From positions 1-44,416 of the forward strand of contig FCNA01000157.1 in the NCBI GenBank assembly GCA_900018345.1: 44,416 bases of DNA. The letters are read 5' to 3'. Positions 40,608-44,295 of the stretch are shown one piece after another. Both the position numbers and the translations under genes were made by a program. The notes below the pieces were generated by a model that did not search any database, had not been told where the DNA came from, and saw only the letters and a list, made by a program, of their open reading frames with translations. Position 1 is the stretch's first letter. Each line of letters opens with the position of its first letter. Source of the stretch: Clostridiales bacterium CHKCI006 (GTDB taxonomy: Bacteria; Bacillota_I; Bacilli_A; Erysipelotrichales; Coprobacillaceae).

Positions 40608-42092
40608 TTATTCAGTGACTGTAATTCTTTGTCCGCTCTCCATCGCATCGATGTATGTTTTGGCCTGAGTGACTGTGCTTTGATCAGGAATCATAACATA
40701 TAAAGGCGTTGATCCATAAGAATAAGTCGATCGGCTAGCACCGCTGCCATCCAGTGAATAAGTTTGAATATCCCAGCTGGACATATCATTGAGCTGCATT
40801 CTGACTAATGACTGAATTTCAGAAGTAGATAAGCTGGTCTGGAAGCTGTCAGAGACTGCACTGAGAATGTTGGTGTAATTGGTGATAATGGAAGGAGAGA
40901 TCATCTTGTTGATGATTCCGGTAATGACAGCCTGCTGGTTCTTACCACGTTGTCTGTCACCGGCTGAGAAGCTGTAACGCTCTCTTGAGAAAGCCAATGC
41001 TTCTTTTCCGTTCAAGGTATTGCTTCCGGCAGAGAAACTATAGCCTCCAGCAGAGAAAGCATACTCACTATTGACAGTGATCCCGCCTAAAGCATCGACG
41101 ATCGTTTCTACTGATGAAAAATTGACTCTTGCATAATAATCAATATCAATGCCGATCAAGTCTTCAAGCGTACTCATTGATTCATTGACACCATAAATGC
41201 CGGCATGTGTCAGTTTATCAAGCTGACCATATGAGTGCAGCGTTACATAGTAATCACGTGGAATATTGGTTAAGAGAATCTGATGCGTTTGGGGATTAAC
41301 CGTGACAAGCATATTGACATCAGAACGGGAGACAGTGGAAACAGGACCATAAGTATCAATACCGGTAATATACAAAGTAAATGTATCTTTCGTTACATCC
41401 ATTTCATCAGAGACCGGAGTTGTTTCAACATCCTGCTGACGTTCGATCGAATAGATGACCTTGACCATATGATCGAACTCTTCATCGTATTGTTCGGTAA
41501 TGGCTTCATAAGCTTCATTCATGATCATGGCATCGACTTCATCATCGAGCAGTGCGTCATACATATCCTGGTAACTATCGTATTCTCTTGTCGCAATGGT
41601 TGTTGAAGTGGCTTCATTGATTTGCTGGACGGCGTAATCCGTATTGTCACGATCACTGATCTTATTGATGGCAAAGGTACCATCCTGTACATCTTGAATC
41701 GCATTGGCTTCGCTATCAGCCTTAACATAAACCAGAACAGATTGTGTCTGGTAATCAGCCCCAGAGATGGCATTGATTGCATGGCTCGTTCTCAGGACAT
41801 AGGTTGAAGCAAAGATCATCAAACAGCTTAATACTAAAGATATAATCCGTCCAAACAGTTTTCGCTTGCTATTTCTTTTTTTGATCAATTGGCTGGCTAA
41901 TACCAATGCAAAGAATAACACAACAACAATCACGATCGGAATCGTATATCTCATTGTCAGCATATTTAAATTTAAGATAAGTCCTACTAAGATACATGAG
42001 GTAATCAGCTGGAAAGCAAGGATAGCACCGCTGATCAGCCGATCTATTTTCTGCTTTTTAGTCAAAGGCTTGATTGTCTTATTTCTAGACAC
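40608..42092 (-). CDS. LytR-CpsA-Psr (LCP) family glycopolymer ligase
   Basis: LCP enzymes move teichoic acid or capsule polymers from the undecaprenyl-diphosphate carrier to peptidoglycan. The 494-residue protein has three membrane segments in the first ~105 residues, an accessory extracellular domain (~115-225), and the LCP catalytic domain with TLYITGID, SRSDVNMLVTVNP, NIPRDYYV and FSRERYSFSAGDRQRGKNQQAVI (shown in part), including the arginines that bind the pyrophosphate. The CpsA-like three-helix layout differs from single-helix LytR. The start is a GTG behind AAAGGAG. Confidence 0.93.
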   Translation of the reverse strand: MSRNKTIKPLTKKQKIDRLISGAILAFQLITSCILVGLILNLNMLTMRYTIPIVIVVVLFFALVLASQLIKKRNSKRKLFGRIISLVLSCLMIFASTYVLRTSHAINAISGADYQTQSVLVYVKADSEANAIQDVQDGTFAINKISDRDNTDYAVQQINEATSTTIATREYDSYQDMYDALLDDEVDAMIMNEAYEAITEQYDEEFDHMVKVIYSIERQQDVETTPVSDEMDVTKDTFTLYITGIDTYGPVSTVSRSDVNMLVTVNPQTHQILLTNIPRDYYVTLHSYGQLDKLTHAGIYGVNESMSTLEDLIGIDIDYYARVNFSSVETIVDALGGITVNSEYAFSAGGYSFSAGSNTLNGKEALAFSRERYSFSAGDRQRGKNQQAVITGIINKMISPSIITNYTNILSAVSDSFQTSLSTSEIQSLVRMQLNDMSSWDIQTYSLDGSGASRSTYSYGSTPLYVMIPDQSTVTQAKTYIDAMESGQRITVTE

Positions 42093-42662: not shown

Positions 42663-42685
42663 AAGGATAATTAGTTATTATCCTT
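42663..42685 (+). promoter_or_regulatory. Perfect hairpin in loaP leader
   Basis: AAGGATAAT (42663-42671), loop TAGTT, ATTATCCTT (42677-42685). There is no T tract, so it is not a terminator; it may be a binding or pausing element. Confidence 0.5.
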
Positions 42686-42759
42686 CATTCGCAGAGGTAT
42701 CGGACACTGGATCGTCGCATTGTCGCGTTCAGTCAAGATGCTAACGATAGGTGGTGTAT

Positions 42760-42800
42760 GTTCAATAAAACTTATTGAACAGGCGAAGCCTATTCTTTTT
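42760..42800 (+). terminator. Attenuator: competing hairpins before loaP
   Basis: Hairpin 1: GTTCAATAA (42760-42768), loop AAC, TTATTGAAC (42772-42780), perfect. Hairpin 2: GAACAGGC (42777-42784), loop GAA, GCCTATTC (42788-42795), with one mismatch, then TTTTT (42796-42800). Hairpin 2 is terminator-like and shares GAAC with hairpin 1, so the two cannot form fully together. The loaP ribosome site starts at 42802. Confidence 0.6.
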
Positions 42801-42816
42801 CAGGAGGTCTGATCAC

Positions 42817-43332
42817 ATGGAAAACTGGTATGTCATTCAGGTCCGCTCCGGTCATGAGCATCAGATTGCCCAAAGCTGTCGCTTTCGCATCGCTGATGAC
42901 ATCCTCAAGGAATGCTTCATTCCAGAATACAAAACCAGAAAGAAATATCGCGGACAGTGGCACGATGTGCAGGCAGTCCTTTTCAAAGGGTATGTATTCA
43001 TGATCAGCGATCAGGTGGATGAACTGTTCAATGAATTGAAGAAGATCCCTGATCTGACGAAGATGATTGGAAAGAAAAAAGACATCATCTATCCATTACC
43101 GGAACATGAGGTGCATTTCCTGCAGAGCTTCTCAGATGATGAGCATCTGGTAGACATGTCCTATGGATTTATCGAAGGAGACAAGATCACGATCACCCGG
43201 GGACCATTGATGGGCAAGGAAGGCAGCATCCGAAAGATAGATCGGCATAAGCGGATCGCCTATATAGAAGTAGAGTTTCTGAATCAGATATCAACAGTGA
43301 AGATAGGACTGGAAATTATAAGCAAGACCTGA
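42817..43332 (+). CDS. loaP: LoaP-type NusG paralogue (operon antiterminator)
   Basis: A 171-residue NusG-family protein: N-terminal NGN domain (ENWYVIQVRSGHEHQIAQ, then LFKGYVFM) and C-terminal KOW domain (GDKITITRGPLMGKEGSI). Specialised paralogues such as LoaP in Bacillus velezensis and UpxY in Bacteroides promote elongation through long polysaccharide or antibiotic operons. Its position ahead of rmlA-rmlC supports this role and argues against housekeeping NusG. ATG 42817 follows AGGAGG; an upstream in-frame ATG at 42775 lies within the attenuator. Confidence 0.9.
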   Translation: MENWYVIQVRSGHEHQIAQSCRFRIADDILKECFIPEYKTRKKYRGQWHDVQAVLFKGYVFMISDQVDELFNELKKIPDLTKMIGKKKDIIYPLPEHEVHFLQSFSDDEHLVDMSYGFIEGDKITITRGPLMGKEGSIRKIDRHKRIAYIEVEFLNQISTVKIGLEIISKT

Positions 43333-43416
43333 GTTCTTGCTTTTCGTTTTGTTTTTAGTAACAGTTATTTTCCAATGTCCTCATACAAATTAAATTTAAA
43401 TTAAGGAGTTAAAGTG

Positions 43417-44295
43417 ATGAAAGGAATTGTATTGGCAGGCGGCAGCGGGACACGCCTGTATCCATTGACCCAGGTAACCAGTAAGCAGCTGTTACCGATC
43501 TATGACAAACCTATGATCTATTATCCATTGAGTATCCTGATGCAGGCTGGAATCAGGGAGATCCTGATCATCTCTACCCCTGAGGACACCCCTCGCTTTG
43601 AGGAATTATTACATGATGGCAGTCAGTTTGGTATTCATCTTGAATACAGAGTGCAACCATCCCCTGATGGCCTGGCTCAGGCCTTTTTAATTGGTGAGGA
43701 ATTTATTGGAGATGATGCCTGTGCCATGATCTTAGGAGACAATATCTTCTATGGTCATGGTCTGGAAAAGAGGCTCAAGGAAGCAGCCGCAAAATCTGAA
43801 GGGGCAACTGTCTTCGGTTATTATGTCGATGATCCCGAACGTTTCGGAGTCGTCGAATTCGATCAGAATGGACGTGCTGTTTCTTTGGAAGAAAAACCAA
43901 AAGAACCAAAATCCAATTATGCTGTGACAGGTCTCTATTTCTACGATAATCATGTCGTGGAATATGCGAAGTCCATCAAACCAAGTGCCAGAGGTGAACT
44001 GGAGATCACTGATCTAAATAAGATTTATCTGGAAAAGGGACAACTGGATGTGACCTTACTTGGCAGAGGCTTTACCTGGCTGGATACGGGAACCCATGAG
44101 TCACTGGTCGATGCAACCAACTTTGTGCGGACCATGGAGACCCATCAGAACCGTAAGATCGCCTGTCTGGAAGAAATTGCCTATCTCAATCACTGGATCG
44201 ATGATGAAAAGATGTATAAAGCCTATGAGCTCTATCAGAAGAACCAGTATGGAAAATATATCAAAGATGTCATGGAAGGGAAGTATATCGACTGA
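43417..44295 (+). CDS. rmlA: Glucose-1-phosphate thymidylyltransferase
   Basis: First enzyme of dTDP-L-rhamnose synthesis, making dTDP-glucose from dTTP and glucose-1-phosphate. The 292-residue protein has [44 protein letters not shown] and [12 protein letters not shown], all typical of RmlA. ATG 43417 follows AAGGAG by eight bases; GTG 43414 is an alternative. The stop overlaps the rmlC start (TGATG). The 43333-43416 gap is AT-rich with no clear terminator, so it is co-transcribed with loaP. Confidence 0.96.

Follow-up and report, generated by a model that had tools for sequence, protein, structure and literature searches.

A probable LoaP loading element, composed of a conserved RNA hairpin and a predicted pause site, at loaP and capsule genes of Erysipelotrichia

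Here, a composite element of about 95 nt was identified in the leader of the antiterminator gene loaP, within a 44,416-nucleotide stretch of DNA from Clostridiales bacterium CHKCI006 (the window). It consists of a hairpin (H1), a spacer, a second hairpin (H2), one base, and the near-invariant motif GGCGAAGC-N-Y|R. A sequence-only reading had placed a transcriptional switch at 42760-42800; this site is the 3' part of the larger unit. Probably, it is the 3' half of a LoaP loading element, in which an RNA hairpin is combined with a pause and which serves the autogenous processive antitermination of capsule operons. This proposal is based on how the element is conserved, covaries, and is laid out, on its co-occurrence with loaP, on its copies elsewhere in genomes, and on terminator-like hairpins after loaP; from these observations we infer both LoaP binding and pausing at the element.

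Composition of the element and the hairpin H1

The element lies within the 724 bp that separate loaP (42817-43332) from a divergent LCP-family gene (40608-42092, minus strand). Like the other features of the window described below, loaP is on the plus strand. The 171-amino-acid LoaP scored 189.4 bits against NF033641.1, above the curated cut-off of 125, and is thus a member of the LoaP family. The first capsule gene 3' of loaP is rmlA (43414-44295), encoding glucose-1-phosphate thymidylyltransferase (TIGR01207, 498.9 bits). As noted earlier, the 42760-42800 site sits right before the loaP ribosome-binding site, AGGAGG at 42802-42807. The whole element (42702-42797) matched positions 1-98 of the 98-position covariance model R1 at 67.3 bits (E = 1.6e-11), with the window row (G000:C4:42702-42797) itself being part of the R1 training alignment. 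A palindromic AAGGATAAT/ATTATCCTT-type hairpin (H0; 42663-42685, approximate ends) lies 5' of H1 and is common only to some close relatives.

H1 (42706-42733), the candidate LoaP-binding RNA hairpin, is the most informative half of the element. It was absent from the sequence-only reading. Its 3' end lies 27 nt upstream of the H2 stem, and the spacer between them often contains GUCAUA. In the window, H1 has a variable outer stem (ACUG/CAGU), a conserved core (UCGUCGCAUUGUCGCG), and bulged U42715 and U42723; the core consensus is AUCGUYGC-NNN-GUCRCGUU, the apical part being C-NNN-G with a bulged U. For covariation analysis, 30 of 33 rows were aligned without gaps, leaving out L033 and L035 (both with a longer loop) and L037 (identical to L036). 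Nine of the 13 pairs were changed on both sides, and 85.1% of the cells were paired, compared with 70.2% after shuffling (0 of 500 shuffles as high) and 24 to 50% in slid registers. The core pair Y15-R24 was C-G in 22 of the 30 sequences and U-A in 7. The core pattern matched once in the window and not at all in 100 shuffles, and its three perfect matches genome-wide were all in the genome's three elements. The window H1 alone was no more stable than its shuffles (z = -0.41), and an energy-based fold favored a slightly different inner pairing. As regards the features of known LoaP leaders, a structured RNA hairpin in the 5' leader is present as H1, with covariation, and a UNCG-type loop was found in a single H1 row (UUCG in L036, 1 of 30).

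A promoter-like sequence, TTGCAW-N17-TATTAT with TGTAG before the second hexamer, was observed in near-identical form 88 to 117 nt upstream of H1 at L017, L018, L019, L024, L040, and L041. A scan of the window did not find it there.

The second hairpin and the pause-like motif

H2 (42760-42780), the proposed pause hairpin, is the perfect 9-bp stem of the sequence-only reading, in which GTTCAATAA (42760-42768) pairs with TTATTGAAC (42772-42780) across the loop AAC. Among elements, its sequence varies while its pairing and position are kept. RNAalifold missed H2 on the MAFFT alignment because the left arm was misaligned there, and H2 was therefore tested by position and by model alignment. In 32 related elements (a set without L029), the best stem ending one base before the GGCGAAGC site had a mean score of 15.9, whereas shuffling the 45 nt upstream gave 6.7 ± 0.47 (best of 500 shuffles, 8.3); the stem was at least 6 bp long in 27 of the 32. 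The H2 position was also paired in all 7 elements outside this first test, with shuffles reaching the observed score in 0 to 1.2% of cases in six of them and in 5% in the Clostridia copy. In aligned set A5 (43 matches from 42 loci), which was fitted to R1, all 6 counted H2 pairs changed on both sides in some sequences, and 95.1% of the cells were paired. For H1 and H2 together in this fitted alignment, 14 of 17 pairs were changed on both sides, and 92.5% of the cells were paired compared with 72.9% after shuffling. The existence of the H2 stem is confirmed, and stems of this kind are conserved, also before related loaP genes.

The second stem of the sequence-only reading was only partly borne out. 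GAACAGGC (42777-42784) and GCCTATTC (42788-42795) do flank GAA, with TTTTT following (42796-42800), and GAAC (42777-42780) is common to both stems; however, 7 of the 8 pairs form, C42780 being opposite A42792. From this arrangement it had been proposed that the 9-bp stem, as an antiterminator, and the stem at 42777-42800 with its T5, as a terminator, exclude each other and so set loaP synthesis by premature termination, which we now consider quite unlikely. In the minimum-energy fold of 42758-42800 (-11.1 kcal/mol, z = -3.97), the 9-bp stem and the 4-bp mini-hairpin AGGC-GAA-GCCU are formed together; the 9-bp stem meets competition only from the weak outer GAA/UUC extension, and folding the full alternative by itself gives -6.0 kcal/mol. 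In the predicted fold, the conserved hairpins thus coexist instead of excluding each other.

In addition, a consensus terminator scan of the window made no plus-strand (transcribed) call at 42777-42800; it called this site on the minus strand only, where the C-A mismatch is G-T, although a looser scan allowing one mismatch does flag the window. Between H1 and 50 nt past the motif, a terminator-like structure was found in only 2 of 33 elements, the window (with its mismatch) and L029, which argues against a classic switch. T-runs of at least 4 after the motif occur in 14 of 39 elements, including the close relatives L017 to L020 and L024, but many leaders have AAAT instead, and a U-run is not general among elements. 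On these grounds, the second stem was judged to be no conserved terminator, and a leader attenuator was rejected. Copies of the element away from loaP and in other operons, described below, likewise speak against an attenuator dedicated to loaP synthesis.

The same region carries an ops-like pause motif, GGCGAAGCCTATTC (GGCGAAGC-N-Y-R-Y-Y-C; 42782-42795), which was compared across 39 elements. This set was without L029 (no assignable motif) and without L131 and L129, which lie away from loaP and are partial or belong to a second class; another aligned set used 21 of 32 rows, without unclear motifs, near-duplicates, and a few others. Exact GGCGAAGC was present in 28 of the 39 elements, with 11 departing from it. 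A pyrimidine occupies motif position 10 in all 39, and a purine occupies position 11 in 37. GGCGAAGCNTRYYC has 3 occurrences across the 3.33-Mb genome, all of them inside the three elements. The 3' arm of H2 ends 1 nt before GGCGAAGC, and with the pyrimidine as the RNA 3' end, the last base of H2 is 11 nt upstream. The predicted paused RNA 3' end (-1) is T42791, with +1 at A42792 and G-10 at 42782. According to PMC12288461, elemental pauses have G-10 Y-1 G+1, and hairpin-stabilized pauses have an RNA duplex 11 to 12 nt upstream. The spacing of H2 and the motif would therefore give the geometry of a hairpin-stabilized pause, and a pause at T42791 is predicted.

As described in PMC5995543, the ops of RfaH is GGCGGTAGCGTG, its C3:G8 pair closes a loop in the non-template DNA, and the pause is at position 11. 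Both systems have a NusG paralog, a GGCG..AGC.YR motif with consensus-pause bases at its ends, and a C3:G pair closing a small GN(N)A loop; at the sequence level, this pair and the Y-1 R+1 pause bases are all present in the element. The ops sequence itself was not found, GGCGAAGC-N-Y-R having a loop one base shorter (GAA vs GGTA), without the flipped-out T. Unlike ops, the element also has a preceding hairpin and the separate RNA hairpin H1, and its protein is LoaP, not RfaH. C-GNA-G is kept in 30 of 39 elements (28 with exact GGCGAAGC, plus GGCGGAGC and GGCGTAGC). A DNA mini-hairpin of extraordinary stability, with a loop of the GNA type, is described for GCGAAGC, GNNA loops forming the other type (PMC4686876); in our reading the ops loop is of the GNNA type. 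For the bare 10-mer, a DNA energy model gave 0 kcal/mol, without any mini-hairpin stability; the stability is therefore taken from PMC4686876.

Copies and distribution of the element

Two further copies were found in this genome by R1. One is at C31:6479-6574, where a second loaP with its leader lies in a second polysaccharide locus and matches the window at 99.5% over 665 bp from 42666 on. The duplicated cassette (window 42666-43330; L005 6443-7107) includes 151 nt of leader. The match runs from a palindrome, inside H0 at 42666, to the stop codon of loaP, as though a cassette had been moved. The third copy (C155:1866-1961, minus strand) is without loaP and follows a Polysacc_synt_2 gene; the same LoaP would act on this copy too, in trans.

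Of 148 related genomes searched, 30 have an orthologous loaP at E < 1e-40. R1 gave 42 matches in 31 genomes at the significance cut of E ≤ 1e-3. The element was present in 29 of the 30 genomes with an orthologous loaP and in 2 of the 118 without it (G006 and G035; Fisher p = 2.6e-27, relatedness ignored), and the match in G006 adjoins a LoaP-like gene. G041 has loaP and no significant R1 match, and no H1 was found upstream of L045, the loaP of G009. By position, 32 matches were upstream of loaP orthologs or a degraded copy, 2 were just downstream of loaP (G017 and G026, about 27 nt), 1 was just downstream of the phage LoaP-like gene in G006, and 7 were elsewhere. R1 was trained mostly on loaP leaders, so its matches at loaP arise partly by construction and are not independent; the element's absence elsewhere and its extra copies are independent of that training. 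Most loaP leaders have the order H1, spacer, variable stem H2, one base, and GGCGAAGC-N-Y-R-Y-Y-C, with the ribosome site within about 13 nt after the motif.

The genes that follow copies away from loaP encode, among others, priming sugar transferases at L127, L129, and L130, a glycosyltransferase at L128, a CpsD-like ATPase at L131, and, at a greater distance, an ABC transporter at L126. Priming sugar transferases likewise come after L134 and L135, the two copies located downstream of loaP. Since GGCGAAGC ends about 9 to 13 nt before GGAGG in most loaP leaders, H2 and GGCGAAGC might set access to the loaP ribosome site. Such translational control is highly improbable, as the same element is found without an adjoining ribosome site at L034/L043, L126, L128, L132, and C155, and it was rejected. 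At L034 and L043, which belong to one genus, a terminator-like hairpin with a T-run precedes loaP, and the element is downstream of loaP.

The copies without an adjacent loaP would also suit a LoaP-independent pause or RNA-stability signal, acting via NusA/NusG or an RNase and travelling with loaP since both are in capsule loci. Pause-like geometry would work with NusA alone, on the account given in PMC12288461. We nevertheless consider such a signal unlikely, because the element is nearly absent from the 118 relatives without orthologous loaP, divergent LoaP-type paralogs have joint changes in H1 and the motif, and H1 is changed at the phage LoaP-like gene.

These divergent paralogs (L059, L060, and L061), all of one genus, are 29 to 32% identical to the window protein. 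Their elements are laid out in the same way, with another H1 (AAUCACUGAC..GCGCAUGUUA) and another post-H2 motif (TGGGRTYNTRYYGTC-like). A second-class copy (L129) precedes the sugar transferase in G038, a genome with such a paralog (L060), and has no adjacent loaP. The phage element keeps GGCGAAGC but has an altered H1, with two otherwise near-constant core pairs changed. These cases, small in number, suggest matched LoaP/element pairs.

The prophage, also present in IMG/VR (L132 2373-4901, L179, and L180), carries its LoaP-like gene (phrog_6386) between the small and large terminase subunits, with the element right at the 3' end of the gene. No relative of the window LoaP was found in viral contigs. 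Carriage of the element by phages in general was rejected: of 17 IMG/VR stretches that contain the H1 core exactly, R1 matched 16 at E ≤ 1, with 0.018 as the lowest E, and did so only over that core, with no H2 or motif.

R1 matches at loaP were obtained in records of Merdibacter, Traorella, Kandleria, Erysipelatoclostridium, and Thomasclavelia (Traorella and Kandleria were checked as Erysipelotrichia) and in one Clostridia MAG, Candidatus Allocopromorpha. In a sample of 392 genomes of the phylum, LoaP at E ≤ 1e-38 was found in only 14, of the same two families. When genomes were scanned starting from the solved LoaP (8f5g), matches were obtained in Thermoanaerobacter, Paenibacillus, and others, with no B. 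velezensis among them. There was no R1 match at E ≤ 1 at the LoaP-scan loci of Thermoanaerobacter, Paenibacillus, Lachnospiraceae, and Bacteroidota; the element is therefore not general to LoaP. Repeated palindromes like GACAGAATNCATATTCTGTC were seen near the LoaP-type gene at L167, L168, and L170 (Lachnospiraceae/Clostridiales MAGs). In the 220 nt before the gene, the divergent LoaP leaders L058 and L064 have a common hairpin, ACTTCG-TGGGGAAG-CGAAGT, which may represent a further type of LoaP element.

Proposed mechanism and relation to known systems

In the proposed loading of LoaP, RNA polymerase would transcribe H1, and LoaP would bind it as it emerges. At the predicted pause, a GNA mini-hairpin closed by a C:G pair may form in non-template GGCGAAGC, similar to that in the ops of RfaH. 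The pause would give H1-bound LoaP time to join the polymerase, antagonize NusA, and travel along, a step in part established for Bacillus velezensis LoaP (PMC12691694). The modified polymerase would then pass downstream intrinsic terminators, the first at 43320-43342, into rmlA and the capsule genes. With such read-through past loaP into the operon, loaP and the operon would thus be positively autoregulated. The earlier suggestion that LoaP may regulate its own leader is kept in outline, as a regulatory leader in what is now the leading model, while control of loaP by dedicated premature termination is dropped.

The intrinsic terminator-like hairpin at 43320-43342, the proposed read-through target, lies over the loaP stop codon, before rmlA. 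A strict-shape scan found such a hairpin within 260 nt 3' of loaP in 17 of 36 loaP genes, some of which were scanned over shorter downstream stretches; the shuffled expectation was a mean of 0.015 per sequence. These hairpins often overlap or adjoin the stop codon. Compared with the 2 of 33 elements that have a terminator-like structure between the leader hairpin and the first gene, a stop for LoaP to overcome is therefore found more often after loaP. The C31 loaP copy is without a post-loaP terminator. Should rmlA be transcribed from a promoter of its own, a post-loaP terminator may do no more than finish a transcript of loaP alone.

According to PMC12691694, B. velezensis LoaP needs a leader RNA hairpin, called UNCG-type in dfn, is helped by a downstream pause, and antagonizes NusA. 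The authors propose that LoaP bound to the hairpin is allowed by the pause to join the polymerase in time; they also sought a DNA recruitment sequence in dfn, without finding a clear one. The predicted anatomy of our element fits this proposal closely. As in the dfn/mln leaders, so far as described there, a LoaP-family NusG paralog is combined with a leader RNA hairpin, a downstream pause (here predicted), and intrinsic terminators in the operon for read-through. Unlike those leaders, the element precedes loaP itself and capsule genes, has a fixed ops-like motif after a second hairpin at constant spacing, and has its terminator after loaP instead of in the leader. H1 is also set apart from the dfn hairpin, going by the latter's description, by having no UNCG loop in 29 of 30 rows. 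As in the Bacteroides capsule loci controlled by UpxY (PMC7819879), a NusG paralog is encoded with capsule operons, but the window protein is of a different subfamily (61.9 bits against the UpxY model, cut-off 100).

A known Rfam RNA was rejected as well, since the window and 20 related loci gave 0 matches to any Rfam 15 family at gathering score. EAR RNA is a leader RNA of Bacillales capsule and biofilm operons and is thought to antiterminate exopolysaccharide operons. It is named in the reference list of PMC12691694, and the lack of any Rfam match sets our element apart from it. Among the titles and abstract openings searched, we found no description of the composite element or of its ops-like half; the 2017 and 2021 LoaP papers may contain related leaders. 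The element is ordinary in kind, as a LoaP leader, and new in its composite form.

An extension of this model, which we put forward tentatively and hold to be somewhat improbable, is a two-part code. The RNA-binding surface of LoaP would hold H1, while its NusG-like N-terminal domain would read the non-template GGCGAAGC mini-hairpin at the H2-held polymerase. Each paralog, the phage one included, would then be matched to its own H1 and motif, so that capsules and phage late genes would be antiterminated through orthogonal channels.

The element supplies a testable recruitment signal by which LoaP may find its operons outside Bacillus. With R1, genomes can be scanned for LoaP targets, among them capsule operons that lack a loaP of their own. 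The element is a possible Gram-positive counterpart of ops, linking RNA-hairpin and pause-based recruitment, and capsule expression in gut Erysipelotrichia may depend on it.
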